The notes beneath the pieces were generated by a model, which did not search any database, was not told the DNA's origin, and saw only the letters and a list, made by a program, of their open reading frames with translations. Positions 17,589 to 56,504 of a stretch of DNA of 64,000 nt are shown here, one piece after another (position 1 is the first letter of the stretch; every line of letters starts with the position of its first letter). Origin of the DNA: Myxococcota bacterium (GTDB lineage Bacteria; Myxococcota_A; Bradymonadia; UBA7976; UBA1532). The DNA lies in assembly GCA_963169045.1 (NCBI GenBank), contig CAUJDF010000044.1:372001-436000 (forward strand), read 5' to 3'. The translations under genes and the position numbers were made by a program.

Positions 17589-18463
17589 GCGAACACCGCC
17601 TCGAGGAGCGCCTCGAGGTGCGCCTCCGGGGTCGGCGGCGCGGCGCGGGGCGGCGAAGGACGCACCAGGGCGCCGCGCGCGACGGCGGCGAGGCCCGACG
17701 GGCCGCTGGACCGCGCCCAGACGTGCGTCGGATCCAGGAGGCAGGCGGCGCCGCACGCGTCGCTGACGACGGCCGGCACGCCGGCGGCGACGGCTTCCGC
17801 CACGACGTTGCCGTAGGGCTCGTAGCGCGCCGGATGCACGAGCAGCGCCGCACCGGCGATCCACGGTGCGGCCTCGATGGCGCCGTGAAAGACGACGCGG
17901 TCTCCGACGCCCAGCCGGACGGCGAGGCGGCGCCAACGGCGCGGGGCCGCGTCGGCGCCGATCACGTGCGTCACGAGGCCGGGCAGCCCTGGCAGCGCGC
18001 GCAGCCAGTGGTCGAGCCCCTTGCGGCGCAGACCGTGGCCGACGAGCACGGCAGCGCCGCCTGCTTCGCGGGCGGGCGGGGCTTCCGCGGAGAACACGGG
18101 GTTGAGAACGACGCGGGCGTCGTCGCGGCCGTACCAGGCGGCGAGCTCGGCGGCGACCATGGGCGAGATGGCGACGACACGCCTGGCGGCGCGGACCGCC
18201 GCGCGCTCGGCGGCCACGCGGCGCGCCCAGCGGAGACGCCATCCACCACAGGCCGCCACCCAGGCGGCGGACACGCCGTCACCGGTCCGCACGACGTCGC
18301 CGCCGTCGACGGCCCGGAGCGCGAACCGCACGCCGTCCGGCGCGAGCAGCCCCCGCGCCGCGAGCGCCCCCGCGAGCCAACGTCCATACCGTTCCAGGCC
18401 ACCGTCCCGGACGGTGGCTGCGCCGGGGGCGGCGAGCGTCAGCGCCCGAGAACCTTCGTGCAC
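17585..18463 (-). CDS. GT4-like glycosyltransferase
   Basis: 292-aa GT-B glycosyltransferase. An N-terminal acceptor half is followed by the donor half containing VGHGLRRKGLDHWLRAL and the E-x7-E type segment (YEPYGNVVAEAVAAGVPAVVSD). Probably adds a sugar to an envelope glycan together with the heptosyltransferase-like enzyme, whose start overlaps its stop. GTG 18463 is chosen; TTG 18469, two codons upstream, is an alternative. The next gene is divergent, with only 39 bp between the starts. Confidence 0.85.
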   Translation of the reverse strand: MHEGSRALTLAAPGAATVRDGGLERYGRWLAGALAARGLLAPDGVRFALRAVDGGDVVRTGDGVSAAWVAACGGWRLRWARRVAAERAAVRAARRVVAISPMVAAELAAWYGRDDARVVLNPVFSAEAPPAREAGGAAVLVGHGLRRKGLDHWLRALPGLPGLVTHVIGADAAPRRWRRLAVRLGVGDRVVFHGAIEAAPWIAGAALLVHPARYEPYGNVVAEAVAAGVPAVVSDACGAACLLDPTHVWARSSGPSGLAAVARGALVRPSPPRAAPPTPEAHLEALLEAVFA

Positions 18464-18464
18464 A

Positions 18465-18493
18465 TTCAAGTTCGAACCATCGCAGCGTATAAG
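18465..18493 (+). promoter_or_regulatory. Candidate promoter of the kinase-TPR-activator operon
   Basis: TTCAAG (18465-18470), 17 nt, TATAAG (18488-18493), 9 nt, ATG 18503. On the opposite strand TATACG (18491-18486) overlaps this -10 and could drive the glycosyltransferase gene, so the two promoters may exclude one another. Confidence 0.4.
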
Positions 18494-18502
18494 GAAGCCA
18501 TC

Positions 18503-20323
18503 ATGATCGGGACCAATCTGGGCCGCTACCGCATCGAGGCGGAGCTCGGTCGCGGCGGCATGTCCGTCGTCTACCGCGCGCACGACCCGGTGCTCGGTCG
18601 CGCGGTGGCCCTGAAGGTCCTGCACCCGCACCTGGCCGACCGTCGCGAGGCCCGCGAGCGCTTCACGCGCGAGGCGCGCGCCGTCGCCCGACTGGCCCAC
18701 CCCCACATCGTGGAGGTCTACGACTACGCGCCGCCGGACGCCGAGCGCGCCTACATCGTCACCGAGTTCATCGACGGGCCCACGCTCCGCGCCTTCGTCG
18801 ACGAGCACCCCGTCGCGCGCGCTGAGGTCGCCGCGCTGCTGATGATCCCGGTCTTCGACGCGCTGCAGCACGCCCACCAGACGGGCATCGTCCACCGCGA
18901 CGTGAAGCCCGAGAACATCATGCTCGGCCCGGAGGGCACGCCGGTCCTGATGGACTTCGGCATCGCCCAGATGGTCGACACCGAGACGCTCACCGCGACG
19001 GGCATGATCCTGGGCTCGCCGGCGCACATGGCGCCCGAGGTGGTCGAGGGCGAGGAGGCGGGGCCGCCCGCCGACGTCTTCAGCGCGGGCACCGTGCTGT
19101 ACTGGCTCGTCTGCGGCGCGCTGCCCTTCACGGGTCCGAGCCCGGCGGCGCTCTTCCGGCGCATCCTCGAGAGCCGCTTCGACCCCGTGCTCCAACGGCG
19201 GCCGCATGCCGGGCGCGCGCTCGCGCGCATCATCGAGCACTGCCTGCAGCGGTCGCCCGACGCGCGCCCCGGCAGCGCCCGGGAGGTCGCCGAGGCGCTG
19301 CGCGCGCTGCTCGCGGAGGCGGGCCTCACCGACCTCGCTGCCGAGCGCGCCGCGTTCTGGCGCGAGCCGGCCGTCTACCAGGAGGCACTCGGGCGCCGCG
19401 TGCTCCCGGCATACCTGGCCTCGGCCCGACGCGCGCTCGACGGCGGGCTGACCGCGCGGGCGCTCGATTTCCTCGACCGCGTTCTCGCCCTCGACGAACG
19501 GCACCCCGAGGCCCTGGCGCTGCTGGACCGCATCGAGCGGGGCCAGCGCCGGTGGCGCACGGTCCGCCGGGCGGCGCTGGCGGTGGCCGGCGCCGCGCTC
19601 GTCGGCGGGATCGCCGGCACGATCCGGCTGTTCACCGAGCCACCCGCGCCGGTCCCCGACGCCGCCGTGGCGGCGGCCACCGACGCCGCCCCGCCGGATG
19701 CCGCCCTCGCCCTGGCCGTGCCCGACGCCGCGACGCCCGACGCCGCCGTGGTCGCCCGCGCGCCCGACGCCGCCCCGCGTCCCCTCGAGCGCCCGCGCCC
19801 GGCCGTCGCCAGCGCGCCGCCCGTCGAGCCCTCGCGACCGGAGGTCCCGTCGACGGCGAGCGTCCCGCCGCCCGCGCCGGTCCGCCTCGACGTCCGCGCC
19901 GACCAGAAGAACGGCCGCATCTTCGTCGACGGCGTCCTGCACGCCGAGGTCTGGGAGATCGACAGCCGGGCCAAGCCGGTCGTCGTGCCCCCCGGCCGGC
20001 ACGTCGTCCGCTTCGAGCACCCGGCCTGCGAGCCCGACGAGGAGCGCGTGGAGGTCGTCGCCGGCGACGACCGGCGCCGGCCGGTGCTCTTCCGCTGCCG
20101 CTGGCTGCCGGCGTACTTCGAGGTGCGCTCCAACAAGCCGGCGGAGGTGCGCGACGCCGCGACAGGGCAGATCCTGGGGCGCACCAACCAGGAGATCCCG
20201 TTCCCGATGCGCCACCAGCGGGCCTCGCTCACCTTGACCATCCAGGGGTCGGAAGGTAGCGTCATGCAACGCGTGCTGGCCCTCGTCGCGGGCCAGAAGC
20301 ACGCGGCTTCGGTCGAGTTCTGA
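18503..20323 (+). CDS. Transmembrane Ser/Thr protein kinase with PEGA-like sensor region
   Basis: 606-aa receptor-like kinase. Kinase domain at about 8-270 with GRGGMSVVY, VALKVL, HRDVKPENIM and DFGIAQ all intact. One membrane span follows at about 355-375, then an Asp-Ala-Ala/Pro linker, then two short beta-rich modules of PEGA type (NGRIFVDGVLHAEVW; YFEVRSNKPAEVRD) outside the membrane. First gene of an operon with a TPR protein (8-bp gap) and an FHA-GAF-sigma54 activator, which is a plausible phospho-dependent partner. Near-leaderless start. Confidence 0.92.
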   Translation: MIGTNLGRYRIEAELGRGGMSVVYRAHDPVLGRAVALKVLHPHLADRREARERFTREARAVARLAHPHIVEVYDYAPPDAERAYIVTEFIDGPTLRAFVDEHPVARAEVAALLMIPVFDALQHAHQTGIVHRDVKPENIMLGPEGTPVLMDFGIAQMVDTETLTATGMILGSPAHMAPEVVEGEEAGPPADVFSAGTVLYWLVCGALPFTGPSPAALFRRILESRFDPVLQRRPHAGRALARIIEHCLQRSPDARPGSAREVAEALRALLAEAGLTDLAAERAAFWREPAVYQEALGRRVLPAYLASARRALDGGLTARALDFLDRVLALDERHPEALALLDRIERGQRRWRTVRRAALAVAGAALVGGIAGTIRLFTEPPAPVPDAAVAAATDAAPPDAALALAVPDAATPDAAVVARAPDAAPRPLERPRPAVASAPPVEPSRPEVPSTASVPPPAPVRLDVRADQKNGRIFVDGVLHAEVWEIDSRAKPVVVPPGRHVVRFEHPACEPDEERVEVVAGDDRRRPVLFRCRWLPAYFEVRSNKPAEVRDAATGQILGRTNQEIPFPMRHQRASLTLTIQGSEGSVMQRVLALVAGQKHAASVEF

Positions 20324-28754: not shown

Positions 28755-28771
28755 GGTGAACGCGCACGGGG

Positions 28772-28800
28772 TTGTGGGGCGGTCGCCCTTCCTCTATCCT
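28772..28800 (+). promoter_or_regulatory. Candidate near-leaderless promoter of the salvage operon
   Basis: TTGTGG (28772-28777), 17 nt, TATCCT (28795-28800), 9 nt, ATG 28810 of tdk. No ribosome site precedes the ATG. Confidence 0.5.
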
Positions 28801-28809
28801 CCGCCGCCG

Positions 28810-29469
28810 ATGCACCACCTCCCCGAGGGCACCGGCTGGATCGAGGTCATCTGCGGGAGCATGTTCTCCGGCAAGACCGAGGAGCTGATCCGCCGGCTGC
28901 GCCGCGCCGTCTACGCCCGGCAGCAGGTGCAGGTCTTCAAGCCGCGCGTCGACGACCGCTACGACGCCGAGATGGTCGTCAGCCACGACGCCGGCCGCAT
29001 GCCGGGCGTCGCCGTCGAGCACGCGCGAGACATCCTCCGTCACCTCGATCCCGCGACTTCGGTCGTCGGCATCGACGAGGCCCAGTTCTTCGATGACGAT
29101 CTCGTGGCCGTCGCCAGCGAGCTGGCCGACGCCGGCAAGCGCGTCGTCGTCGCCGGCCTCGACCAGGACTACCGCGGCAAGCCGTTCGAGCCGATGCCGC
29201 AGCTGCTGGCCATCGCCGAGTTCGTCACCAAGACGCACGCGATCTGCATGGTGTGCGGCAACCCGGCCAACCGGTCCCAGCGCCTGACGGCGAGCGAGTC
29301 GCGCGTGGTGATCGGCGCCGGCGACACCTACGAGGCGCGCTGCCGCCGCTGCCACGTCGACACCCCGGTGTCGGCCCCCACGCAGCCGGATCTGCCGATC
29401 GGCGAAGGCGGCGGGACGCGGCCCGTGGTACCCGAACAGGCCGTCCTGCCGCTCCGGGGAGAGTCATGA
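28810..29469 (+). CDS. tdk: Thymidine kinase (type II)
   Basis: 219 aa. Phosphorylates thymidine with ATP for salvage. Walker A GSMFSGKTEEL near residues 17-27, Walker B DEAQFF, and two zinc CxxC pairs (CMVC and CRRC) are all in place. The tail beyond about residue 190 is low-complexity and longer than usual. First gene of tdk-upp-hpt; its stop overlaps the next start as ATGA. Confidence 0.95.
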   Translation: MHHLPEGTGWIEVICGSMFSGKTEELIRRLRRAVYARQQVQVFKPRVDDRYDAEMVVSHDAGRMPGVAVEHARDILRHLDPATSVVGIDEAQFFDDDLVAVASELADAGKRVVVAGLDQDYRGKPFEPMPQLLAIAEFVTKTHAICMVCGNPANRSQRLTASESRVVIGAGDTYEARCRRCHVDTPVSAPTQPDLPIGEGGGTRPVVPEQAVLPLRGES

Positions 29470-30257
29470 CCTATCGCCTCAACCAGATCAAGCACCACTA
29501 CGGCGAGCACGTGCACGTGCTCGATGACCCGTTCCTGACGACGCAGCTCGCCAAGCTGTGCTCGCCCGACACGCGCCAACCGCAGTTCAACGAGATCGTG
29601 TCGATGCTCTACACGAGCCTCATCCGCATCGTGATCAACGCCGAGTTTCCTCGGCGCCGGGTCGCGGTCTCGACGCGGATGGCGGCCTCGACCGAGCGCG
29701 GCGTGTGGGAGGGCGAGGTCGTCGACACCTCGACGCCGACCGTGGTGGTCGACATCGCGCGCGCCGGCATCCTGCCGAGCCAGATCTGCTACGACACGCT
29801 GAACCACAGCCTCGACCCGGCGCGCGTGCGCCAGGACCACCTGATCGTCGCGCGTACCACCGACGCGCAGCACCAGGTGACGGGCGCGGCGCTGTCCGGC
29901 AGCAAGATCGGCGGCTCGATCGACGGCGCGATGGTGCTCTTCCCCGATCCGATGGGGGCGACGGGCAGCAGCCTGGCGACGGCCATCGACGCGTACCTCG
30001 AGGCGGGCCTCGGCCGGCCGGCGCGGCTGCTGACGCTGAACCTGATCGTCACGCCGCAGTTCGTCCGCCGCCTGACGAAGACGTGGCCCGACGTGCGCAT
30101 CTACGCGCTGCGCCTCGACCGCGGCATGTCGCCGCCCGACGTCCTCGGGACGGTGCCGGGCGCGCGCTGGGACGAAGAGTCCGGCCTCGACGAGCGGGGA
30201 TACATCGTCCCCGGCGGCGGCGGCTTCGGCGAGCTCATGAACAACAGCTGGGTGTGA
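29466..30257 (+). CDS. upp: Uracil phosphoribosyltransferase
   Basis: 263 aa. Converts uracil plus PRPP to UMP. The PRPP loop reads LFPDPMGATGSS, and the uracil-binding end reads ERGYIVPGGGGFGELM, both typical for the family. It is longer than the common ~208-aa bacterial enzymes, mainly in the N-terminal half. ATG 29466 overlaps the tdk stop. Confidence 0.9.
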   Translation: MTYRLNQIKHHYGEHVHVLDDPFLTTQLAKLCSPDTRQPQFNEIVSMLYTSLIRIVINAEFPRRRVAVSTRMAASTERGVWEGEVVDTSTPTVVVDIARAGILPSQICYDTLNHSLDPARVRQDHLIVARTTDAQHQVTGAALSGSKIGGSIDGAMVLFPDPMGATGSSLATAIDAYLEAGLGRPARLLTLNLIVTPQFVRRLTKTWPDVRIYALRLDRGMSPPDVLGTVPGARWDEESGLDERGYIVPGGGGFGELMNNSWV

Positions 30258-30261
30258 GACG

Positions 30262-30813
30262 GTGCCGTTCTACGACCCCAAGAAGATCGAGGTGATGATC
30301 GAGGCCGAGGCCCTCCGCGAGCGCATCGCGGCGCTCGGCCGGGAGATCGGCGACGTCTACCGCGGCCAGGGCGAGCTGGTCCTCGTAGGCGTGCTCAAGG
30401 GCAGCTTCATGTTCCTCGCCGACCTGTGCCGCGCGATCGACCTGCCGGCGGAGATCGACTTCCTCGGCGTGTCGAGCTACGGGGACGCCGAGGAGTCGAG
30501 CGGCATCGTGCAGGTCACGCAGGACTTGACGAAGCCCGTCGAGGGCAAGCACGTGCTGATCGTCGAGGACATCGTCGACACCGGGCTGACGCTGCAGTAC
30601 CTCGTGGCGAACCTGTCGACGCGGCGGCCGGCCTCGTTGCGGGTCTGCACGCTGTTGCACAAGCCGGCCAACTGCAAGAACGAGGTGAAGCTCGACTTCG
30701 TGGGCTTCGAGATCCCCGACCGGTTCGTGATCGGCTACGGGCTCGACTACAAGAGCAAGCTGCGCAACCTGCCGTTCATCGGGGTCAACGTCGGCGAAGG
30801 CCCGCCGTTCTGA
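30262..30813 (+). CDS. hpt: Hypoxanthine(-guanine) phosphoribosyltransferase
   Basis: 183 aa. Salvages hypoxanthine/guanine with PRPP. The PRPP motif VEDIVDTGLTL and the flexible-loop SSYG are present, as is the late FVIGYGLDY. GTG 30262, 4 bp after the upp stop. Its TGA overlaps the CTG start of the next gene (CTGA). Places purine and pyrimidine salvage in one transcript. Confidence 0.94.
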   Translation: MPFYDPKKIEVMIEAEALRERIAALGREIGDVYRGQGELVLVGVLKGSFMFLADLCRAIDLPAEIDFLGVSSYGDAEESSGIVQVTQDLTKPVEGKHVLIVEDIVDTGLTLQYLVANLSTRRPASLRVCTLLHKPANCKNEVKLDFVGFEIPDRFVIGYGLDYKSKLRNLPFIGVNVGEGPPF

Positions 30814-33011
30814 AGGCGGCGATCCTGCTGGCGCTGCTCGCCCTGGCGGGGTGCCGGGCGCAGGAGGCGGCCCCCCCGCCCTCCGCCGCCCCACCGCCCT
30901 CCGCGGCCCCCCCGCCCTCCGCCGCCCCGCCGCCCTCCGCGCCGGACTGGGCCGCCATCCGCACCAGCGAAGAGACCTGCGTCGACTGCCACGCCGACGA
31001 GGTCGAGGCGTGGCGCGCGTCGCCGATGGGCCGCAGCATCACCGCGCTCCCTTCGACGGTGGCGGACGTGGCGGGCGCCGCCGTGCGCCACCCGCGCACC
31101 GGCGTGCGCTACACCGTCGCGCCGGCCGCATCGGGCCGCCTGCGGTTCACCGACGAGGCAGCGACGATGTCGCGCGAGGCGGCCTGGGCGGTCGGCAGCG
31201 GCGCGCACACGCAGTCGTACTTCTTCGCCGAGGCGGACGGCCTCTTTCAGCTGCCGCTCACGTGGTACGCCCGCCCGAAGAAGTGGGATCTGAGCCCCGG
31301 TTACCAGGGCGCGGACCACCCCGGCTTCTTCCGCGAGGCGCGCGCGGACTGCATCGCCTGCCACGGGGAGCCGCTCGTGCCTCAGGCGGGCACGCGGGCG
31401 CGCTTCCTCGACGCCACGCCACGCGCCATCGGCTGCGGCCGCTGCCACGGCGACGCGCGCGCCCACGTGGCGGCGGCCTCGGGACAGGGCCCGGCGGCGC
31501 CGTCGCCCGTCGTCCCCACCAAGCTCGATCCGGCACGGGCCCGCGACGTCTGCGACCAGTGCCACCTGCAGGGTGCCGTGCGCCTGCTGCGCGAGGGGCG
31601 CGCCTTCGGCGACTTTCTGCCCGGCCAGCGACTCTCCGACAGCGTCGCGGTCTTCGTGCACGCGCGCCCCGGCGAGGGCTTCGGTATCGCCAGCCATGGC
31701 GAGCGCCTGCGGCGCAGCGCGTGCGCACAGGCCTCCGGCGATCGGCTCGGTTGCACGACCTGCCACTCGCCGCACCGGACGGGGCCGGCCCGCGATCGCG
31801 CCGCCCCCTGCCGCGACTGCCACGGCGGCGCCGCCGGCGCGCACGCCTGCAGCGGACCGGGTGGCGACGACTGCGTGCGGTGCCACATGACGAAGGGCGA
31901 GACGAGCGACATCCCGCACACCGCGATGACCGACCACTTCATCCGGCGCCGCCCCGACGCGCCGCCCGCCACCGGCGATCCGGGGCCGCTCGTGTGGGTG
32001 GCGCGGCCCGATCCCGATCCACGCGATCCCGCCGAACGGCTGCTGCTCGGGCGGGCCTGGGCGGAGCGCACGCGCCTCGGCGGACCGCCGCCCGCGGTGG
32101 AGGCCGCCCGCCTTCGCGCCCTGCAGCTGCTGACCGATGGGCTCGCCGTCCTGCCGGACAGCGTCGAGGGCTGGCTCGACCGAGCGGCGATGGCGCACCT
32201 CGGGGGCGACGCGGCCGGCGCGCGCGCGGCGGCAGAGCATGCCTTCCGGCGCCGCCCGGCGCACGCGAAGGTCGCGGCGGTGGCGGCGTCGGCGCGCCTC
32301 GCGGCCGGGGACGCCGACGCGGCGCTCACGGCGGTGGACGCGGCGCTCGCCGCCGAGCCCGGCGCGCCGGACCTGCGCGTCCAGCGGGCCCAAGTGCTCA
32401 TGAGCCTCGCGCGCTTCGACGAGGCCGGCGCCGAGCTGGCGCTCGTGCTCCGCGAGCGCCCGAGCGACGGCGACGCGCGCCTGGCCGCCGGCCTCGTCGC
32501 GCAGTTCCGCGCCGGCGCCGCCGAAGCGCTGCCCCACTTCCAGTCGGCCGCGCGGTTCGCCCCGGCGCGCGTCGGGGCCTGGCTCGCGCTGCTGCGCGCC
32601 GAGGTGCTGCTCGGTCGCTGGGACGCCGCGCTCGCCACCGCCGAGCGGGCGCGGCCGTTCCTGACCGAGGCGATGGGCGGCACGTTACCGGCCAGTGCCG
32701 CGGGGATCCTCGACGGTGCGCGCGCGCGGGCGCTGCTCGGGCTGGGACGCGGCGCCGAAGCGCTGGCGCTCGCCCGCGCGGCGCTCGCGGCGAGCCCGGC
32801 GGCGGCGGAGGCGGCGGTGGTGCTCGCCTTGGACGAGCTGGCGGCGGGCCGTCCGGCAGCTGCGGCGGCGTCCCTCGAGGCGGCACTCGAACGCGCCCCC
32901 GACGCGGCGATCGCGTGGGCGGCGCTGGCGCTTGCCCGTCGGGCCGAGGGCCGCGAGGCCGACGCTGAGCAGGCGGCGCGCCGGGCGCGGCTGTTCGGGG
33001 CGCGCCCCTGA
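30810..33011 (+). CDS. Seven-haem cytochrome c / TPR lipoprotein
   Basis: 733 aa. Begins at CTG 30810: no ATG, GTG or TTG occurs in frame nearby, and starting here gives an ideal lipoprotein signal (LKAAILLALLALAGC, Cys15). A PPPSA repeat linker follows. Seven CxxCH haem sites lie at about residues 57-360 (CVDCH, CIACH, CGRCH, CDQCH, CTTCH, CRDCH, CVRCH), followed by about 350 residues of TPR-like helical repeats. Related multihaem-TPR proteins occur in several phyla; the electron partner is unknown. Probably periplasmic or outer-membrane electron transfer. Confidence 0.85.
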   Translation: MKAAILLALLALAGCRAQEAAPPPSAAPPPSAAPPPSAAPPPSAPDWAAIRTSEETCVDCHADEVEAWRASPMGRSITALPSTVADVAGAAVRHPRTGVRYTVAPAASGRLRFTDEAATMSREAAWAVGSGAHTQSYFFAEADGLFQLPLTWYARPKKWDLSPGYQGADHPGFFREARADCIACHGEPLVPQAGTRARFLDATPRAIGCGRCHGDARAHVAAASGQGPAAPSPVVPTKLDPARARDVCDQCHLQGAVRLLREGRAFGDFLPGQRLSDSVAVFVHARPGEGFGIASHGERLRRSACAQASGDRLGCTTCHSPHRTGPARDRAAPCRDCHGGAAGAHACSGPGGDDCVRCHMTKGETSDIPHTAMTDHFIRRRPDAPPATGDPGPLVWVARPDPDPRDPAERLLLGRAWAERTRLGGPPPAVEAARLRALQLLTDGLAVLPDSVEGWLDRAAMAHLGGDAAGARAAAEHAFRRRPAHAKVAAVAASARLAAGDADAALTAVDAALAAEPGAPDLRVQRAQVLMSLARFDEAGAELALVLRERPSDGDARLAAGLVAQFRAGAAEALPHFQSAARFAPARVGAWLALLRAEVLLGRWDAALATAERARPFLTEAMGGTLPASAAGILDGARARALLGLGRGAEALALARAALAASPAAAEAAVVLALDELAAGRPAAAAASLEAALERAPDAAIAWAALALARRAEGREADAEQAARRARLFGARP
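30867..30938 (+). repeat. Four tandem 18-bp units coding the PPPSA linker
   Basis: Units start at 30867, 30885, 30903 and 30921 and encode AAPPPS-type hexapeptides directly after the lipid-anchor cysteine of the multihaem protein. Confidence 0.9.
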
Positions 33012-33289: not shown

Positions 33290-34504
33290 ATGGGTCGTCG
33301 AATCCTCCTGGCCTGGCTGACGGTCGCAGCGCTCGCGGGGACGGCGCTCGCCGACGCGAACGTCCGCCGCACGGCGCCGATCGCCGTGCCGCCCGCGCCG
33401 GCTCAGACGCACCTCCGCCCCGCCGGGCCCGTTGCCGACTTCGAGCCCATCGCTGCGCTCGTCGCGCACGCGCTCGTCGTCGAGCTCGATCCGGCCTTCG
33501 ACCGCCTCCTGCGCGAGCTGCTCGGCAGCCGCTACTACGTCGAGACCGTCGACCCGTGCGGGACCGACGCCGGGCGGGACTGCGAGCACTGGCCGGCCGA
33601 CCGCATGACCCTCTGGGCGCGCGACTACGTGCCGGCCTTCGTCCGCCGGGCTGACGGCCGCCTGAAGGTCGTGCGCTACCTCTCGCAGAACCCGAACCGC
33701 ACCTTCTATCTGCAGACGGTCGCACCGCGGCAGCGCCACCCGCTGCAGCACTCGCTGACGCCAAACGCGACGCGCCCCGCGGCGCTGCTCGAGACGCTCC
33801 CGCTCATCCACGAGAACGGCAACCTCGTCACCAACGGGACCAGCCTCTTCCTGACCGCGCGCGTGCTGCAGGAGAACACCATCCCGCCGCCCGACCCGCA
33901 CCTGCCGTCCCTGGGGTTCAAGAGGCGGAGCCCCGACGAGATCGTCGCCACGCTGGCCCGCGTGTTCGAGCGGCCGGCGAGCGACGTGATCATCCTCCCG
34001 ACACTGCCGGGCGAGCGCACGGGCCACATCGACCTGTTCCTGATGGCGGTGGACCGGCGCACGCTGTTGGTGCCGGCGGTGCCGCCCGAGGCGCTCGGCC
34101 ACGCGGTCGGCCCCCGCGAACAGCAGCTCGGCATCACGACCGCGCTCTTCCTCGACCGCACGGCCGAGAGCCTGAAGGCGCTGGGCTTCGAGGTCGCGCG
34201 CCTGCCGATGGTGGCGCCCGTGTTGACCGCCTCGATCGACGGCGTGGAGAGCCACATCGACCCGCTCCACATCTCGCCGACCAACACGCTGCTCCTGCGG
34301 ACGGACCAGCGCGCCGTGGCGGTGCTGCCGTCCTTCGCGGTGGCCGGCCGCACGGCGGCGTTCGTGGCGATGCAGAAGCGCTTCGAGAAGCAGTGGGCCG
34401 AGTTCTTCCGCGCGCGCGGCTGGGAGACGCGGCTGCTCGACGCCACCCCCCTCGCGCGCCGCGGCGGGCTCTTCCGCTGCGTCACGGCGCCGATCCCGAA
34501 GTGA
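33290..34504 (+). CDS. Secreted agmatine / peptidyl-arginine deiminase-like enzyme
   Basis: 404 aa. Signal peptide (cleavage near ALA at residue 21). The rest matches the PAD_porph/agmatine deiminase pentein fold: WARDYVPAFV, HENGNLVTNG, GHIDLF and a C-terminal GGLFRC with catalytic-type Cys397. The family hydrolyses the guanidino group of agmatine or of peptidyl-arginine. Export suggests a peptide or protein substrate, as in Porphyromonas PPAD, but this is inference. It abuts the next gene tail to tail with no spacer (TGATCA). Confidence 0.82.
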   Translation: MGRRILLAWLTVAALAGTALADANVRRTAPIAVPPAPAQTHLRPAGPVADFEPIAALVAHALVVELDPAFDRLLRELLGSRYYVETVDPCGTDAGRDCEHWPADRMTLWARDYVPAFVRRADGRLKVVRYLSQNPNRTFYLQTVAPRQRHPLQHSLTPNATRPAALLETLPLIHENGNLVTNGTSLFLTARVLQENTIPPPDPHLPSLGFKRRSPDEIVATLARVFERPASDVIILPTLPGERTGHIDLFLMAVDRRTLLVPAVPPEALGHAVGPREQQLGITTALFLDRTAESLKALGFEVARLPMVAPVLTASIDGVESHIDPLHISPTNTLLLRTDQRAVAVLPSFAVAGRTAAFVAMQKRFEKQWAEFFRARGWETRLLDATPLARRGGLFRCVTAPIPK

Positions 34505-39761: not shown

Positions 39762-40832
39762 CTACGCGTCGCGGCCGCGCAGGCGCTCGAGCGCGCGCTG
39801 GTGCTGGCGGGCCTTGTAGAGCGAGTGCCGGTTCTCGCCGGCGTTGTTGGCGAGATCGGTGGCGCGGTCGACGAGCTGGAACTCGACGAGCTCGAAGACG
39901 ACGACGCCGTCCTCGACGCGGTAGTCGGGCACCGACTCGACGAGGTCGTCGACCCGGACGGCCATGTCGACGACGAAGTTGATCATCTTGAAGCCCTTGG
40001 CGCTGAAGACGTTCTCGGGGCCGTGCCCCAGCTCTTCGGCGTCGGCGGGCATCTGTAGCATCGGCACGAGCTTCGACAGGTGCGCGTCGCCCTCGAGGGT
40101 CGCGTGGAAGTCGATCAGGTCGTTCCGCGACTCGCCGGGGATGACGTAGTTGAACGGGAAGAGCTCGGTCGTCATGTAGACGAGCGCGCCGAAGAGGTCG
40201 CCGAGGTCCTCGGTGACGACGCGGAAGCGCAGCTTGTCGTGCACCTCGGCGGCGAGGCTGTCACGCCGGCAGAGCAGCTTCGTGAGGATCGAGTCCCACG
40301 ACTTCCGGCTGGCCGTGAATTCGGCGATCTTCACGCCGCGGGCCTTCATGCCGTCGACGGCGTCGAAGACCCGCGTCTCGATGCGGTGGAAGATCTCGAC
40401 GGCGGCCACCGGCAGGCGCGACAGCAGCTCGCGGCCGGCCACGTGGTGGATGACGTGCATCGCCTTGAGCGCCGTGCACGCCTCGCGCTGCGCCGGCCCG
40501 GCCTGGCTCGCGAGCAGGAAGAGGTGCCGCACGTCGTCGGGCTCGGACACGCCCGGCGAGAGCTTCAGGTCGAAGTTGCGCTCGAGGTACTCCACGGCCT
40601 GTCCGTGGATGTGCCACAGGCGCTCCTCGTCGTCGGGATCGTCGGGGCGGAAGCCGAGGCGCAAGAGCAGCCGGTCGACGTGGTCGAGGTCGCGCATGTT
40701 GAGGCGCCGCCAGTCGATGACCGAGCAGCCGCGGAGCAGCAGGCGCACCTGCTCGACCTCCTGGAGGCCGTAGGGCAGCAGGTGGGCGTCGGCGATGCTC
40801 GCCTGGAAGGAGAGCGTCTGGTCTTCGGCCAT
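39762..40832 (-). CDS. Unknown protein with a region resembling a RelA/SpoT synthetase fold
   Basis: 356 aa, soluble. ATG 40832 has GGAGGGG 8 nt upstream. The segment at about 174-225 (SRKSWDSILTKL ... VHDKLRFRVVTEDLGDLFGAL) follows the order of the Rel synthetase block seen in this window's own Rel protein (RPKHLYSIYQK ... LFDILAFRILV then YEALGLIH). A nucleotidyltransferase-like fold is therefore possible, but the substrate tyrosine loop of Rel is not evident. An N-terminal helical region precedes it. Function not established. Confidence 0.7.
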   Translation of the reverse strand: MAEDQTLSFQASIADAHLLPYGLQEVEQVRLLLRGCSVIDWRRLNMRDLDHVDRLLLRLGFRPDDPDDEERLWHIHGQAVEYLERNFDLKLSPGVSEPDDVRHLFLLASQAGPAQREACTALKAMHVIHHVAGRELLSRLPVAAVEIFHRIETRVFDAVDGMKARGVKIAEFTASRKSWDSILTKLLCRRDSLAAEVHDKLRFRVVTEDLGDLFGALVYMTTELFPFNYVIPGESRNDLIDFHATLEGDAHLSKLVPMLQMPADAEELGHGPENVFSAKGFKMINFVVDMAVRVDDLVESVPDYRVEDGVVVFELVEFQLVDRATDLANNAGENRHSLYKARQHQRALERLRGRDA

Positions 40833-40939
40833 GCGCGGGACCCCTCCGGCGCCGGCGCCGGTCCTTCGGGGGCGGCGCACCTTACGGCATGGCGCGCAGC
40901 AGGGCAAGGCCGGGGTCGCCGGGCGGAGACGCCCGCGTC

Positions 40940-41092
40940 TCAGCGGCGGGCCTTCTCGAGATTGCAGGTGCTGATGAAGAGGGCGGCCGCCGCGGCCAGC
41001 ATCGCCAGGTTCCCGACGACGAGCCCCGCGGTCCCCCCCGCGATGGCCGCCGTCGCCGCGCCTGCCCCGCCGAACAATGCCAGCGCCTTCAT
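40940..41092 (-). CDS. 50-aa hydrophobic membrane protein
   Basis: MKALALFGG start, an Ala/Gly-rich hydrophobic stretch covering most of residues 5-42, one Cys, and a basic tail ending EKARR. ATG 41092 has GGAGGGG 6 nt upstream, the best evidence that it is expressed. Probably one or two inner-membrane helices. A perfect GAGACGC-CC-GCGTCTC palindrome overlaps its stop. No family recognised. Confidence 0.6.
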   Translation of the reverse strand: MKALALFGGAGAATAAIAGGTAGLVVGNLAMLAAAAALFISTCNLEKARR

Positions 41093-41152
41093 CGTCGCCC
41101 CTCCGGCCACATGTAGGTACAAGTAATATTCAGATGACACGACCCCGCCCCC

Positions 41153-41181
41153 TTGTCAATTCTCCGGGGCCACGCCATTTT
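41153..41181 (+). promoter_or_regulatory. Candidate leaderless promoter of the M16 peptidase
   Basis: TTGTCA (41153-41158), 17 nt, CATTTT (41176-41181), 6 nt, ATG 41188. The same bases read TTGACA on the minus strand (41159-41154), a consensus -35 directed toward the 50-aa gene, though the minus -10 at 17 nt (CATCTG) is poor. Confidence 0.45.
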
Positions 41182-41187
41182 CCGGCC

Positions 41188-42477
41188 ATGCACCTGAGGC
41201 CTGCCTTGCGCCGACTCTCCAACGGGCTCACCGCGGTCGCCGTCGAGCGGCCCGGCGCGCTCACCGCCGTCGTGACCGCCGACGTCCGCGTCGGCGCCCG
41301 CTTCGAGTCCCGCGTCGACTCGGGCCTGTCGCACTTCCTCGAACACATGGTGTTCCAGGGCTGCGACGGCTTTCCGACGCCGGAGTCGCTCAACGACGCC
41401 GCCGAGCGCATGGGCACCGCCCTCGACGCCAGCACCGGTCGCGACTCCACGCACTTCGAGCACTGGGTCGATCCGGCGCGGCAGAGCGACGCGGTGCGGC
41501 TGCTCGGCGCGCTGCTGCGGGCGCCCCACTTCCGGTCGATCGAGTCCGAGCGGGCCATCATCCTCGAGGAGGCCCTCGACGAGGTCGACGAGCGCGGCGA
41601 GATCATCGACGCGGAGACGCTCTCGCGGCAGGACCTGTGGGCCGACAACCCGCTCGGGCAGACGGTGATCGGCCTGCGGGACAACCTGCGGCGCTTCTCG
41701 GTCGACGACCTGCGGCGGCACCACGCGCGGCATTACGTGGCCGCCGACATCGTGGTGACGATCGTCGGCCCGCGGCCGGTGGAGGCCTCGCTCGACGACG
41801 TGGAGGCCGCCTTCGCGCAGCAGGCCGAGGGCCCGCGCTGCGAGCCGGTGACGCCGGCGCCGCTGTCCGGCGGGCCGCGCGTGCGCTTCGTGAAGGACAG
41901 CCGCAGCCAGGCCGACGTGCGCCTCGTCTTCCGCACGCCCGGCCACAAACACGCCGACGCCGCCGCGCTGCGCATGGTGAAGACCGCGCTCGACGACGGC
42001 CTCGCCAGCCGGCTGCACCGCCGGCTCGGCGCCGAGCTCGGCCTCGCCTACGACCAGTGGGCGATGTGGGAGCGCTACCCCGACACCGGCGCGTTCGAGA
42101 TCGGGGCGCACGTGAGCCCCGCCAAGGTGCCCACGTTCGTCGAGGCGGCGCAGAAGCTGCTGACCGAGCTGGTGGTCAACCCGCCCGACGACGACGAGAT
42201 GGAGCGCGTCCGCTTCCGCGCACGCTGGGCGCTCACGAGCTGCCTCGAGTCGCCGGACGCCATCGCCTCGCTCGTGGGCACGCCGCGCCTCTACGACGCC
42301 GACCCGCCCGATCTCGAGGAGCACCTGCGCCGCATCGACGCCGTCACCCGCGACGACATGGTGCGGGTCGCCCGCGACTTCCTCGTGCGCGACAAGTACG
42401 TGGCCTGCGTCGTCGGGCCGCTCGGCCGCTCCGAGCGCAACGCCGTCCGCCGCCTCGTGATGGGGTTCGGCCTGTAG
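41188..42477 (+). CDS. M16-family zinc metallopeptidase
   Basis: 429 aa. Inverzincin motif HFLEH (H49, E52, H53) with the downstream glutamate in the IILEEALDEVDE helix; the C-terminal half is the second M16 fold with a substrate-binding arginine/tyrosine region (around LGLAYDQWAMWERY). No signal peptide, so cytoplasmic, or processed otherwise. It is a single active-type subunit of mitochondrial-processing-peptidase/PqqL size; no inactive partner gene lies beside it. Converges on the ATPase gene. Confidence 0.92.
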   Translation: MHLRPALRRLSNGLTAVAVERPGALTAVVTADVRVGARFESRVDSGLSHFLEHMVFQGCDGFPTPESLNDAAERMGTALDASTGRDSTHFEHWVDPARQSDAVRLLGALLRAPHFRSIESERAIILEEALDEVDERGEIIDAETLSRQDLWADNPLGQTVIGLRDNLRRFSVDDLRRHHARHYVAADIVVTIVGPRPVEASLDDVEAAFAQQAEGPRCEPVTPAPLSGGPRVRFVKDSRSQADVRLVFRTPGHKHADAAALRMVKTALDDGLASRLHRRLGAELGLAYDQWAMWERYPDTGAFEIGAHVSPAKVPTFVEAAQKLLTELVVNPPDDDEMERVRFRARWALTSCLESPDAIASLVGTPRLYDADPPDLEEHLRRIDAVTRDDMVRVARDFLVRDKYVACVVGPLGRSERNAVRRLVMGFGL

Positions 42478-42484
42478 CCCGGGC

Positions 42485-43981
42485 TCATTGGGCCCCGCGC
42501 GGGGCGGGGCTGGCCTTCACGGCGCGCATGTCCGCCCAGCGCTTGATGTCCTTGATCTGCTCGGACATCGTCGTGGACAGCGGCACGATGCGGCTCAACG
42601 TCGCGTAGAGATCCGTCGGCGTCAGCGCGCGGCCTTCGTCGAACGCCCGGAAGAGCCCATTGGCGATCACCTGCTCGATCTCGGCCCCGTTGAAGCCCTT
42701 CGTGGCCTTGGCGAGCTGCACCAGGTCGAAGGCGTCCACGTCCTGCCCGCGCCGGCGCAGATGCACGGCGAAGATCTCCGCCCGCTCCGCCTCGACCGGC
42801 AGGTCCACGAAGAAGATTTCGTCGAAGCGGCCCTTGCGCAGCAGCTCCGGCGGCAGGCGGTCGATGGCGTTGGCCGTCGCCGCCACGAACACCTCCTTCG
42901 CCTTCTCCTGCATCCACGTCAGGAAGTTGCTGAAGAGGCGTTGTGCCAGGTTGTTGGCCTCCTCCGCGCCGACCACCGCGGTCTCGATCTCGTCGATCCA
43001 CAGGATGCAGGGGCTGATCTCCTCGGCGGTGTGGATGGCGGCCTCGAGCGTCTCCTCCGGCGTGCCGAGGACGCCCGCGTACACGCGGTTCATGTCCATG
43101 CGCACCATCGGCAGCTGCCAGGCGGCGGCGATCGCCTGCACGCAGATCGACTTGCCGCACCCGCTGATGCCGGTGAGCAGGAGGCCCTTGGGTGCGGCGA
43201 TCCCGAAGCGGGCGGCCTCCGGGGAGAAGAAGCGCTCGCGCTGCTTCAGCCAGTCCTTCAGGTTCGACAGGCCGCCGACGTCCTCGAGCCGGACGCGCGG
43301 CGGGACGTACTCGAGCACCCCCGACTTGCGAATGAGCTGCCGCTTCTCCTCGTGAATCGCCTCGATCGAGACCCGATCGACCGCCTTTCGGCCCAGGAAC
43401 AGCCGCGTAAAGGCCGTGCGCGCCTGGTCCAGGGTCAGACCGAGCGCCGATCGGAAGAGCTCGACCCGGTCTCCGGGCGTCAGGTTGTCCGAGGCGCGCG
43501 GAAAGCTGCTGCGGACCTGCTCGAAGGCGCGCGCGAGCTCCGCCTCATCGGGCAGGGGCGCGTGCTCGACCAGCATCTCCTTGAGCAGATCCGGGGGGAC
43601 GAGCAGACGCGGCTGCACGAGGACGACCGTGCGGTACGTGGACCGGAGCGCCTGATGGACTTCGCGCAGCTTGCGGACGACACGCGGATCGTCCAGGAAC
43701 GGGTGCAGGTCGCAGAAGAGGTAGATCGCCGGCGCGGTGGAGGCGGCGGCGTGGCGCAGCGCCGCCAGCGGCGTCGTCGTGTCGGGCACGGCCACCCCGT
43801 CGAGCGTCAGGCCCGCGGTCGACGACCAGAGGTAGAGCGGCACCGGCTGCGCGAACGTGCGCTTCGCGACGTCGCGGAGGATCGCCTCGACGCGCTCCTC
43901 CTCCCACGACACGACCTGCACGAGCGACACGCGGGCGGCGACGTGCCGGCGCAGGACGTCACCGAACCCCGGCGCGCTCAC
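42485..43981 (-). CDS. AAA+ ATPase of the Ycf46 type
   Basis: 498 aa. The N-terminal half (about 1-215) is a family-specific region without known motifs. The AAA+ module follows (LLLTGISGCGKS Walker A near residue 275, Walker B ILWIDEIE, sensor and arginine-finger region RFDEIFFVDLP). The GCGKS P-loop and N-terminal layout fit Ycf46-like ATPases, known from cyanobacteria and plastids and of poorly defined function. GTG 43981 overlaps the moaDE stop as GTGA. Confidence 0.88.
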   Translation of the reverse strand: MSAPGFGDVLRRHVAARVSLVQVVSWEEERVEAILRDVAKRTFAQPVPLYLWSSTAGLTLDGVAVPDTTTPLAALRHAAASTAPAIYLFCDLHPFLDDPRVVRKLREVHQALRSTYRTVVLVQPRLLVPPDLLKEMLVEHAPLPDEAELARAFEQVRSSFPRASDNLTPGDRVELFRSALGLTLDQARTAFTRLFLGRKAVDRVSIEAIHEEKRQLIRKSGVLEYVPPRVRLEDVGGLSNLKDWLKQRERFFSPEAARFGIAAPKGLLLTGISGCGKSICVQAIAAAWQLPMVRMDMNRVYAGVLGTPEETLEAAIHTAEEISPCILWIDEIETAVVGAEEANNLAQRLFSNFLTWMQEKAKEVFVAATANAIDRLPPELLRKGRFDEIFFVDLPVEAERAEIFAVHLRRRGQDVDAFDLVQLAKATKGFNGAEIEQVIANGLFRAFDEGRALTPTDLYATLSRIVPLSTTMSEQIKDIKRWADMRAVKASPAPRGAQ

Positions 43982-44637
43982 GGCCCGAGCCCAACCCAGA
44001 CCGAGCCGTCGGCGCGGACCTCCTTCTTGAAGATCGGCACGTCCTGCTTCAGACGCTCGATGACGTGACGGCACGCCTCGAAGGCGTCGGCGCGATGCGC
44101 GGCGGCCACGGCGATGATCACCGCCGCCTCCCCGACCGCCAGCACGCCGAGGCGGTGGTGGACGGCGACGCGGGCCGCGGGCCAGCGCGCGATCGTCTCT
44201 TCCCGAATGGATTCGAGGACTTTCAGCGCCATCGACTCGTAGGCCTCGTACTCGAGGCGCACGACGGCGTGCGGGCCGGTGTGGTCGCGGACGGCGCCCG
44301 TGAAGGTGACGAGGCCGCCGCGATCGGGGCCGGCGACGAGCGCCTCGACCGCCCGCGGATCGAGCGGCGCCGTCCAGAGCGCGACCAGCGGCGCGCCGCC
44401 GGCCACCGGCGGAATGAGGGCGAGCACGTCGCCGTCGCCGAGCGGCGCCGCGGCGTCGACGAAGCGCTCGTTCACCGCGAAGCGCACGTGGGGCAGCACG
44501 GCGGCCAGCGCGGGGAAGCGCTCGCCGAGCGCGGCGCGCGCCTCGGCCACGGTCGCGCCGTCGCCGAGGACGAGCGCATCGCGGGAGAGGCCCGCGCGTT
44601 CGCGGGCGGCGCCGAAGAAGAGGACGTCAATGCGCAC
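43978..44637 (-). CDS. MoaD-MoaE fusion (molybdopterin synthase, MoaX-like)
   Basis: 219 aa. Residues 1-81 are a complete MoaD ubiquitin-like domain ending PPVAGG (G80-G81); residues about 85-219 are MoaE, with GLVTFTGAVRDHT, LEYEAYESMA and VHHRLGVLAVGEAAV. Together they convert precursor Z to molybdopterin. In the standard system the MoaD C-terminal glycine must be free to carry sulfur; here it is internal, as in Mycobacterium MoaX, which is cleaved after Gly-Gly. GTG 44637 has GGAGG 4 nt upstream. Confidence 0.92.
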   Translation of the reverse strand: MRIDVLFFGAARERAGLSRDALVLGDGATVAEARAALGERFPALAAVLPHVRFAVNERFVDAAAPLGDGDVLALIPPVAGGAPLVALWTAPLDPRAVEALVAGPDRGGLVTFTGAVRDHTGPHAVVRLEYEAYESMALKVLESIREETIARWPAARVAVHHRLGVLAVGEAAVIIAVAAAHRADAFEACRHVIERLKQDVPIFKKEVRADGSVWVGLGP

Positions 44638-44654
44638 GCAACCTCCGTCGGGGC

Positions 44655-44683
44655 AGCGTATCCTCCGTGCCGCCGCCGGCCAA
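44655..44683 (-). promoter_or_regulatory. Promoter of the moaDE-ATPase operon
   Basis: Minus strand TTGGCC (44683-44678), 17 nt, TACGCT (44660-44655), then about 17 nt to GTG 44637 including GGAGG. The divergent lipoprotein gene may use TTGTCT (44702-44707) with TACACC (44726-44731, 18-nt spacing) on the plus strand. Confidence 0.5.
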
Positions 44684-44760
44684 GCGCGCCCGACGTCGCG
44701 ATTGTCTCGGACCCGGCATCGGACGTACACCGATAGACTCCTCACTTCAGGCGGGCGGAC

Positions 44761-47553
44761 ATGCGAATCGTTGCGGCGGCGATCCTGTGGCTCATCGTGG
44801 TGGGCTGCGCACCCGACGAGGCCACCGATCCGCCGGGCAGCACGCGCCTGCGCCCGGTCGCCGCCGACGCGGCGCCGGACGGGGCCGTGGCGCCACCCGC
44901 CGACGCGGCGAGCGCCGCCGACGCCGCCGCCGACGCCGCCGCGCCGCCCGAAGCCGGCCCCCCCGCGGTGGTGCGTCCGCGAGACTGCGGCGACGCGATC
45001 GTCGGCGTCGTCGGCCCCGCGGGCGGGACCCTGCGCGTCGAGGGCGGCGCCCTCGTCGACGCCGCGATCACCGTGGCGCCCGACACCTTCGATCAGGACG
45101 TCACGCTGCGCATGGCCTGCGCCGAGCCCATCGTGGGCGCGGACCACGTCGCGCTCGGCGCGGCCCTCGCCGTCCTGCCCGACGGCGGCGCCGTCGTCCC
45201 GCGGCGGCCCCTGCGCGTCACCCTCGTGTTCAGCGGCCCCGACCGCCCGGCCGCCGTCGGGGCCAACGAGCTGCGTCTGTTCTGGAAGCCGGCGCGCCAC
45301 GACGGCGTCAGCGAGCCGCCGGTGATCGACGCCGCCATCGACCTGCGCGCGGGCACCTTCGCGTTCACGACGCCCGACCTCGGCACGTTCCAGCTGGGGC
45401 ACCGCCCGGACGCCGGGCAGCCGGTGGACCGGCGGTTCACGTTCCGCGCCATCGGCGGCGTCAGCATGGGGGCGGGCGCGGCGGCCTACCTCGGCGCCCG
45501 GTATTCAGATCACTTCGACTTCGTGCTCCCGCTCGGCGGCGCCAGCGACTGGACGTACTTACTGAACTACATCCGCAATCGGCTCCTCGGCGGCTTCTGC
45601 GCGGGCGAGGCCGTGGGCACGTGGTGCGGCCTGCCGGCCCCCGACCAGCAGTTCGAGCTCGAGGCCGACGCGCGACACTGGCCGTTCTCCGACAGCGGCG
45701 GGCGCTTCGATCGCAGCGAGTACGTGAAGCTGCTGCAGGACCTCTCGTACGCCTACGGCAATCCCCTGCTCTACAACACCGAGAGCGCCTACCGGCCGCC
45801 CGGCTACCCCGTGTCGGAGCTGCGCCGCCCGCCGGCGGAGCGCTGCCTGGCCGAGTGCCGCGGCGACGCCTGCCCGCCCGAGGCCGGGGCCGCGACGTTC
45901 CGGATCTCCGAGGGGTTCTTCGACGGCGAGTACAACCCGCAGGGCCGCCTGCCGGTGATCGCGTTCTGCGACGGCGAGGACGGCGATCCCCCCGGCGTCT
46001 TCGACGAGAGCGTCCCCCACGGCGAGCCGGTCGAGGTGCTGTACGCCGTCGACGTGAACGACAACGGGCGCCGCGACCGGGACGAGCCCATCCTCCGGCA
46101 GACCTCGGAGCCCTTCGACGACGTGGGCTGCGACGGCGTGGCGAGCCGCGACGAGCCCGGCTACGACCCGGTGGCGCGCCCGGACCCGGCCAACGACGAC
46201 TACGACTGGTATCGCAACCCCCTCGGCACGGAGGGCAGCTGGCGCCACGACGACTGCGGCGCGGCGGGCGCCGAGCCGTTCCGCGACGTGGGCCTCGACG
46301 GCGTCCCCGGGACGCCCCAGGCCAGCGACGGCGGCTATGACTTCGGCGAGGGCAACGGGCGCTTCGATCTCAACCCGAACTACGCGCGCTTCCTCGAGCG
46401 CAACCCGGGCACGCTCCTGCGCGCCCTGCCCGCCGCCGGGCGCGAGCGGCTGCGGTTCTGGGTCGACGCCGGCATCCGCGACGTCTTCAACTTCGCGACC
46501 GCCGGCGACCACTTCGTCGGCCAGCTGCAGGCCGCCGGCGAGAACGTCCGCATCTACGACGACCACGCGAAGCTGCTGCCGCCGGACCGCGACCGCGCGG
46601 TGTACTTCCCCGGCGCCGCGCAGCCCGATCCGTTCGGCGAGCGGGGCCGTCACGTCTTCGTGCGCTACGGCGATCCCGAGGCCGACGCCCTCGCGCTCGC
46701 CGAGGGCGACGGCGCCCACGTCGGCACCCCGACCCAGGCGCTCAACCGCTTCATGACCATGCTGGACTGGGTGCTCCGACGCTGGCCCGGCGGCGACTAC
46801 TCGCCCGTGCCCCCGCCGTTCGCGCGCGAGGACCGCGTGGTGTTCTTCGACTCGCCGCGCTTCGGCAAGCGCTATCGCTACGGCATCAGCCTGCCACCCG
46901 GTTACGGACGCCCCGAGAACGCGGCGCGGCGCTACCCGCTGCTGCTCATCCTGCACGGCTATGGCCAGGGTCCCGAGGACCTGCCCATCACCGGCACGCT
47001 GCTCGCCGGGCAGATGGCCGCCGGCGCCTGGCAGAAGGCGATCATCGCGTTTCCAGAAGGATTCTGCGGAGATGCGCGCGTCACACAGTGCAACGACGGC
47101 ATCGACAACGACGGCGACGGCACTGTGGACGCCGGCCGCGACGCGGCGATGCGCACCGCCTGCGACCGGGACGCACAGTGTCGCGGCGACTACCGCTGCC
47201 GGGACGGCTGGTGCTGCCCCGAGGACCTGGCCGAGTGCGGTCCGCCCGACCCGGAGTGCGGCCGGTCGCCCGGCGCGCGCAGCGAGGACGGCGGCTGGTT
47301 GCCGCTGTGCGCCGACGGCGTCGACAACGATCGCGACGGGCAGACCGATCTCGCCGACGAGGGCTGCCTCGACGACGCTGCGCAGGATACGGAGGAGGAC
47401 TGCAAACAGGGCAGCTTCTTCACCACCCACCCTGCCCGCAAGGACGGCGAAGCCGGCGGCCCCGACTTCGAGGGCGCCCTGCTCGACATGCTCGACCACA
47501 TCGACGCGAACTTCCGGACGAAGCGGCCGGAGGTCCTCAGCGTGCCGCGTTGA
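44761..47553 (+). CDS. Lipoprotein esterase with circularly permuted alpha/beta-hydrolase order
   Basis: 930 aa. Signal with lipobox VVGC (Cys16), Asp/Ala linker, then a ZU5-like beta domain (about 78-220: VGPAGGTLRVEGGALVDAAITV). The nucleophile elbow GGVSMGAG (Ser235) comes next, then D574 (GIRDVF) and H602 (YDDH) in the order seen after the nucleophile in the putative esterase family. Only then come the segments that normally precede the nucleophile: RYRYGISLPPGYG, LILHGYGQG (H732), AIIAFPEG, and at the very C-terminus HIDANFRTKRPE. Calcium-type inserts (CNDGIDNDGDG; DNDRDGQTD) lie between. Overlaps the convergent gene by 17 bp. Confidence 0.85.
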   Translation: MRIVAAAILWLIVVGCAPDEATDPPGSTRLRPVAADAAPDGAVAPPADAASAADAAADAAAPPEAGPPAVVRPRDCGDAIVGVVGPAGGTLRVEGGALVDAAITVAPDTFDQDVTLRMACAEPIVGADHVALGAALAVLPDGGAVVPRRPLRVTLVFSGPDRPAAVGANELRLFWKPARHDGVSEPPVIDAAIDLRAGTFAFTTPDLGTFQLGHRPDAGQPVDRRFTFRAIGGVSMGAGAAAYLGARYSDHFDFVLPLGGASDWTYLLNYIRNRLLGGFCAGEAVGTWCGLPAPDQQFELEADARHWPFSDSGGRFDRSEYVKLLQDLSYAYGNPLLYNTESAYRPPGYPVSELRRPPAERCLAECRGDACPPEAGAATFRISEGFFDGEYNPQGRLPVIAFCDGEDGDPPGVFDESVPHGEPVEVLYAVDVNDNGRRDRDEPILRQTSEPFDDVGCDGVASRDEPGYDPVARPDPANDDYDWYRNPLGTEGSWRHDDCGAAGAEPFRDVGLDGVPGTPQASDGGYDFGEGNGRFDLNPNYARFLERNPGTLLRALPAAGRERLRFWVDAGIRDVFNFATAGDHFVGQLQAAGENVRIYDDHAKLLPPDRDRAVYFPGAAQPDPFGERGRHVFVRYGDPEADALALAEGDGAHVGTPTQALNRFMTMLDWVLRRWPGGDYSPVPPPFAREDRVVFFDSPRFGKRYRYGISLPPGYGRPENAARRYPLLLILHGYGQGPEDLPITGTLLAGQMAAGAWQKAIIAFPEGFCGDARVTQCNDGIDNDGDGTVDAGRDAAMRTACDRDAQCRGDYRCRDGWCCPEDLAECGPPDPECGRSPGARSEDGGWLPLCADGVDNDRDGQTDLADEGCLDDAAQDTEEDCKQGSFFTTHPARKDGEAGGPDFEGALLDMLDHIDANFRTKRPEVLSVPR

Positions 47554-47905
47554 CGCGCGCCCAGGCGACGACGACGCGCGCGTCGTCCATCGGGGTCAGG
47601 CGCGCTGCGGGCAGCGGCGCCGCGAAGCCACCCTCCGGCGCCGGCCGCGCGCAGAGGCGCGCCGCCGCCTCGCGGACTTCGACGGGGATCGAGTCGTCGT
47701 CGGCGAGCGCGTTCAGGTGGTGCATGAACGAGGTGCCATAGCCGAGTCTCGGCGAGGCCACGAGCCAGCCCTTGAGCGCCATGCCCGCCGCGCGCCGCGA
47801 GCACACGCGGCCGCGCCCGGCGTTGCCGCCCCTCCACGCCTCTTCGGCGCTTGCCAGCTCCGGGTCGACCTGCGCGAACCAGGCCTCCGGGGTCTCGTCG
47901 GTCAT
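47537..47905 (-). CDS. Small unknown protein, last gene of the lepA-pyr operon
   Basis: 122-aa, soluble, mainly helical, with a conserved-looking core GNAGRGRVCSRRAAGMALKGWL. The helix pairs and RRAAG core recall HEPN-type helical bundles, but I cannot establish this. ATG 47905 overlaps the trmL stop as ATGA. Its last 17 bp overlap the 3' end of the convergent esterase gene. Confidence 0.65.
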   Translation of the reverse strand: MTDETPEAWFAQVDPELASAEEAWRGGNAGRGRVCSRRAAGMALKGWLVASPRLGYGTSFMHHLNALADDDSIPVEVREAAARLCARPAPEGGFAAPLPAARLTPMDDARVVVAWARVNAAR

Positions 47906-48351: not shown

Positions 48352-48357
48352 GGCGGG

Positions 48358-51997: not shown

Positions 51998-54542
<2,545 letters not shown>

Positions 54543-54546
54543 GGAC

Positions 54547-56343: not shown

Positions 56344-56375
56344 TGAAGGCGGGGGCCCCTCTCAGGCTCCGGCGC

Positions 56376-56403: not shown

Positions 56404-56504
56404 CCGCCGTCCCGGGGGCGGTGTTCCGCGGCACAGGCCCGTCCGCGCGAGTTGACTGGCGACCCCCTTCTCGCCGATGAATGGGGGCGATCGGAGGACC
56501 ATCG

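Follow-up and report, generated by a model that had tools for sequence, protein, structure and literature searches.

A putative CTG start codon at a CTGA stop/start overlap ahead of a multihaem lipoprotein gene in a Myxococcota bacterium

Overlaps of the NTGA type, and the coupling of neighboring genes across them by reinitiation, are well described (PMC6728339, PMC10666635, PMC12548453). How the first base is written varies with the source: a 2025 review names the motif NTGA (PMC12548453), a 2013 study gives it as (A|G|T)TGA (PMC3887535), and two surveys name ATGA or ATGA/GTGA (PMC6728339, PMC10666635). Neither CTG nor CTGA has a match in the main text of PMC10666635, PMC3887535, or PMC2174442, nor does CTG in that of PMC6728339. 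Judged by titles and abstract openings, no bacterial case of CTGA coupling was recognized in our searches of open papers.

CTG is given as a possible start codon in NCBI translation table 11. In mycobacterial start selection with a Shine-Dalgarno (SD) sequence it accounts for 0.03% and is not enriched (PMC4633059), and structural work on the wild-type and M1 initiator tRNAs of E. coli reports inefficient initiation on CUG (PMC11497404). Other rare starts, such as ATT, work at a low level (PMC10666635, citing Hecht 2017).

The locus considered here lies near the middle of a 64,000-nt stretch of a Myxococcota metagenome assembly (hereafter the window). A phosphoribosyltransferase gene, hpt (30262–30813, plus strand; Pfam PF00156), ends in GGC CCG CCG TTC TGA, and the junction reads ...CCGCCGTTCTGAAGGCG... 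The first two bases of its stop (TGA, 30811–30813) are also the last two of a CTG (30810–30812) that opens the frame of the next gene on the same strand, a −4 nt geometry; the C is supplied by the last hpt codon, TTC (Phe). Read from this CTG, the translation begins LKAAILLALLALAGCRAQ... and stays open for 733 codons, through a TGA at 33009–33011 (gene 30810–33011, plus strand). The original prediction, made from the sequence alone, had proposed that the gene starts at a CTG overlapping the hpt stop, and the overlap is placed exactly as it said. In the sharing of two bases between TGA and start, the same-strand arrangement, and the beginning of coding at that point, the junction has the geometry of known NTGA-coupled pairs; in the published sets, however, N is A, G, or T, and we therefore class this one, with N = C, as a variant. 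It resembles the rare near-cognate starts of bacteria (CUG, AUU, AUC) in offering the initiator tRNA a codon other than ATG, GTG, or TTG, but differs from them in its putative termination-reinitiation context, in having a GTG counterpart in relatives, and in occurring at two loci of one genome.

The predicted product has the features of a bacterial lipoprotein, as read from the sequence by eye: a putative signal, LKAAILLALLALAGC (30810–30854, plus strand), with Lys at position 2, a hydrophobic core, and the lipobox LAGC with its cysteine. Seven CXXCH motifs follow (at residues 57, 181, 209, 248, 315, 334, and 355), with TPR repeats at the C-terminal end, and the Pfam matches exceed their cut-offs (Cytochrome_C7, PF14522, 33.7 bits against 24.8; TPR_19, PF14559, 51 bits against 25), making this a multihaem cytochrome c of the Cytochrome_C7 type with TPR repeats. 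A homologue was found in 26 of the 142 genomes searched, and a protein scan of genome contigs gave four distant relatives. Directly upstream of hpt, genes for thymidine kinase and uracil phosphoribosyltransferase (28756–30257, plus strand; PF00265 and PF14681) are joined by an ATGA at 29466–29469, so that from 28756 to 33011 a set of nucleotide salvage genes runs directly into a multihaem lipoprotein gene. The gene after that, of about 401 codons (33299–34504), has no Pfam match at an E-value of 0.001.

The claim that no ATG, GTG, or TTG lies near the lipoprotein signal is borne out. In frame with the CTG there is none from 127 codons upstream to 71 codons downstream: the next canonical start is an ATG at 31026–31028 (plus strand), 72 codons on and past both the signal and the first CXXCH, too deep in the gene to be the true start, and the nearest upstream is a GTG at 30426–30428 (plus strand), 128 codons back and within hpt. 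A gene caller that uses codon statistics only, trained on long frames of the same genome and blind to start codons, places the onset of coding at exactly 30810, an agreement in which the last codon or two carry little weight because CTG is itself a favored codon in this genome. A weak SD-like AAGG (30797–30800, plus strand) lies 9 nt before the CTG, the longest exact match to TAAGGAGGTGAT being 4 nt; matches of 4 nt are also the commonest class among the ATGA and GTGA pairs. An SD motif ahead of the start is usual in NTGA pairs, though they do not require one.

Since the cytochrome frame meets no stop in the 3′ part of hpt, the protein might in principle be made by frameshifting out of hpt, or as an N-terminally extended form from the GTG at 30426. 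A simple pattern scan finds no slippery heptamer in the last 33 bases, however, and the extension would be Arg-rich and would bury the signal; in one orthologue (G007), moreover, the corresponding frame has a stop shortly before its own GTG start. The GTG at 30426 was rejected as a start on these grounds, and we regard this whole explanation as exceedingly improbable.

The hpt junction could be compared in relatives, as the original prediction had suggested. Twelve of the 13 genomes of the family have hpt, and in five of these, our own included, the cytochrome gene follows in the stretch fetched. Two of the five (G006 and G007) have GTGA at the same junction point, with the GTG as start of the cytochrome frame; one is the CTG case described here; and in the other two the start lies 19–25 nt further on (in G009 an ATG 19 nt past the hpt stop, in G002 a GTG and an ATG 19 and 25 nt past it). 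Gene order and overlap point in G006 and G007 are thus the same as here, while the first base of the start codon is G rather than C and the flanking sequence has diverged too. None of the four other hpt-adjacent orthologues has a conserved longer N-terminus, which the prediction had named as evidence that would count against it, and all four have lipobox-like cysteines after their starts. In a tree of 16 homologues the hpt-adjacent genes are clustered beyond what shuffled labels give (6 of 500 shuffles were as low), but the five do not form one clade, and two changes are needed. CTGA alone proves nothing at this place, because the hpt genes of five relatives (G002, G004, G005, G009, and G011) also end in CTGA and the cytochrome frame does not begin there.

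These comparisons bear on a further possibility, that another non-canonical codon within the signal is the start. An ATC at 30822 and CTGs at 30825 and 30828 are in frame, and rare starts such as ATT can work at a low level (PMC10666635). Each of the three would lose Lys2 and cut the signal to 9–11 residues, and the GTG of G006 and G007 sits exactly at the stop overlap; we consider any of them a very unlikely start.

A survey of the same genome suggests how often such a start might occur. It covered 2,058,693 of 9,004,260 bases (23%), window included, chosen by contig and not at random; 1531 segments were called in it, with 975 same-strand neighbors, and some onsets are misplaced. C precedes 662 of 1270 TGA stops, so that CTGA itself is common; what is unusual at 30810 is the absence of an alternative start, rather than CTGA as such. 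In-frame NTGA pairs number 427 (G 168, A 117, C 106, T 36). When the onset is required to fall within 10 codons of the junction, with no other canonical start within 30 codons, 24 pairs with A are left, 20 with G, two with T, and two with C; at 15 codons the counts are A 63, G 52, T 6, and C 3. Expressed per TGA preceded by the base in question, the 15-codon rates are A 0.42, G 0.15, T 0.05, and C 0.005, the last falling to 0.003 (2/662) if locus L064 11539 is left out. Per opportunity, CTG (if used) would be rarer than TTG by a factor of about 17 and rarer than ATG by a factor of about 140.

As a class, CTGA pairs do not start at CTG. Seventy-one have their onset at the junction; in 64 of these a canonical start follows within 20 codons, just one codon on (CTGATG-like) in 33, and in five of the remaining seven a canonical start precedes the junction by no more than 10 codons. 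On this evidence we rejected the idea that CTG serves this genome as a general start codon. The last two, which are also the two C cases without a canonical alternative in the survey as a whole, are the cytochrome gene of the window and a truD gene (L172). The five with an upstream start (L051 17688, L056 13129, L067 8995, L105 11610, and L178 16744; the start is 1–8 codons upstream, with none within 20 downstream) may include some that start at CTG. L064 11539 and L182 7173 were set aside as CTGA cases, having an ATG 17 and 15 codons on, respectively. In 400 kb of a relative (G012) there are 16 in-frame CTGA pairs; among those with an onset at the junction, none is without a canonical start within 30 codons.

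Few genes lack a canonical start within 60 codons of their called onset: 10 of 1337 scored in the 2.06 Mb. Five of the ten came from a smaller survey, namely the window gene and four for which the caller had set the onset much too far upstream, the Pfam domain of each beginning hundreds of residues into the segment. The other five are L163, L170, L180, L189, and L191. Elsewhere in the assembly, a gene that is release factor 2-like by eye (L071, 7676–8899; G000:C44, stretch 536001–556000) has its onset 42 codons from any in-frame canonical start, presumably reflecting the programmed frameshift of prfB.

The window itself holds 14 in-frame NTGA pairs (ATGA 5, GTGA 4, TTGA 3, CTGA 2). Stops do overlap starts there as ATGA, GTGA, and TTGA, as had been reported, but each of the three TTGA junctions (50693–50696, 62317–62320, and, on the minus strand, 1221–1224) has a further canonical start no more than 12 codons away, which leaves the use of TTG at them uncertain. 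The second CTGA (20320–20323), where the downstream gene reads LSEPVQLRRLLPAALL..., has a GTG four codons on; either start is possible there. It was set aside for that reason, and within the window only 30810 is then free of ambiguity as a CTG case. The proposal that CTG makes up a fourth member of an NTGA series stands in part: the GTG counterpart in relatives and the truD case support a CTG variant, but with two clear cases in 427 pairs, most CTGA pairs having a canonical start shortly downstream, and the TTGA pairs of the window ambiguous, it amounts at most to a rare, weak form of the NTGA overlap rather than a regular member of the series.

The truD case (L172 17553–18596, minus strand; PF01142, E-value 1.1e-65) resembles the first. 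The upstream neighbor, a cysteine-rich protein like an Fe-S reductase subunit (named by eye), ends ...AAC AGC TGA, and the TruD frame begins with the CTG of this CTGA, LIPFDLVRPGGPSCPW... Canonical starts come no nearer than 36 codons upstream and 66 downstream, and in an alignment of seven N-termini the conserved block starts about 10 residues after the CTG. It is conceivable that ATC, the codon after this CTG and also a rare start, is used instead. The gene adjoins the same upstream neighbor in 13 of 13 genomes of the family, and in nine of them the junction is an in-frame NTGA, with G in G002, G004 (where it reads GTGATG), G006, G007, and G009, T in G005, and C in our own genome (G000), G008, and G011. 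Only the G000 CTGA is unambiguous, because the other two have canonical starts downstream (TTG 23 or ATG 4 codons on). In two genomes of one genus the upstream gene closes with different Asp codons, GAT in G005 and GAC in G011, which gives TTGA and CTGA respectively.

This last difference points to a possible origin for such starts. In an NTGA overlap the N doubles as the wobble base of the upstream gene's final codon; a T-to-C step there is synonymous, turning a TTG start into CTG and leaving the upstream protein unaltered. The genome has a GC content of 72.5%, and at third positions C makes up 51%, G 40%, T 5%, and A 4%. In hpt, G or A at the corresponding position would change the last codon to Leu, while T would keep Phe and make the start TTG. 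A TTG-to-CTG change, silent in hpt, seems the most economical history of the start codon at 30810.

It could also be that the C is a base error, or a minority-strain base, in a metagenome assembly, and that the real codon is GTG, ATG, or TTG. There is one assembly only, relatives carry GTG at the junction, and the same assembly holds at least one gene, FMN_red (L101), with an ATG one base out of frame, so that local errors are possible. On the other hand, a first-base C is found at NTGA junctions of two independent genes within the sampled 23%; at an assumed consensus error rate of 1e-4 per base, about 0.05 first-base-to-C start errors are expected in 1531 genes. The hpt frame, too, speaks for C (or T) being the true base, since it then reads Phe where three relatives (G004, G005, and G011) have Tyr, and G or A would give Leu. 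From the two independent cases and the hpt frame, an assembly error appears to be the less likely account of the C, and as an explanation of the whole locus we think it unlikely. The FMN_red gene itself (17997–18608; G000:C37, stretch 40001–60000; PF03358) lacks any canonical start within 48 codons of where its coding begins, and an ATG mini-frame (ATG CGG CGT CGC GCC TGA), one base out of phase, ends at its start; an indel error would fit, as would a +1 shift.

If the C is real, it might still mark a gene on its way out, the CTG being a down-mutation toward loss and the cytochrome barely translated, with related copies elsewhere in the genome. There are three further homologous places in the same genome, and CTG is a weak start in other bacteria (PMC11497404, PMC4633059). 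Yet the frame is intact over all 733 codons, with its seven CXXCH motifs, and, taken in 12 blocks of 60 codons, it shows a positive coding bias in 11; truD, furthermore, would need the same account, although it is found in 55 of the 57 genomes searched and is single copy in this one. We consider decay quite improbable.

The putative CTG start of the cytochrome gene is thus probably real and unusual, so far as sequence can tell. The reading we prefer, to which we give a probability of roughly 0.7, is that translation of the multihaem lipoprotein gene begins at CTG 30810, by termination-reinitiation at a −4 nt NTGA overlap in which C is a rare, weak form of N. Behind it stand the overlap, the lack of alternatives, the GTG of relatives, and the truD junction. 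Ribosomes finishing hpt at the UGA (30811–30813) would step back one base, which brings the CUG into the P site, and begin anew with ordinary fMet-tRNA to give fMet-KAAILLALLALAGC. A post-termination ribosome would already be on the message, one base from the CUG, a context that may permit use of so weak a codon, presumably at low efficiency. The codon itself would probably have arisen by the synonymous change at the wobble base.

No special machinery is indicated, because the genome has IF3 (only its presence was checked) and an initiator tRNA of normal appearance. The initiator tRNA (L135) has a CAT anticodon, a GGG/CCC anticodon stem with its three G-C pairs, and, by eye, an unpaired 1-72 position. 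We accordingly rejected both a change in the initiator tRNA and the loss of IF3 as the cause.

More tentatively, and as a conjecture that we would sooner doubt than defend, post-termination ribosomes at NTGA overlaps may be able to restart at a CUG that would be rejected in de novo initiation, and wobble drift may keep generating a small class of CTGA-coupled genes in GC-rich genomes, systematically unannotated and mis-started or truncated by gene finders that allow only ATG, GTG, and TTG. If this is true, discrimination among start codons would be looser after termination than in fresh initiation, and the reinitiation model of coupling would be testable by a single base change. In GC-rich bacteria, callers limited to ATG, GTG, and TTG would then overlook or cut short a small number of coupled genes, among them signal-bearing ones, for which the first 15 residues set the location of the protein.
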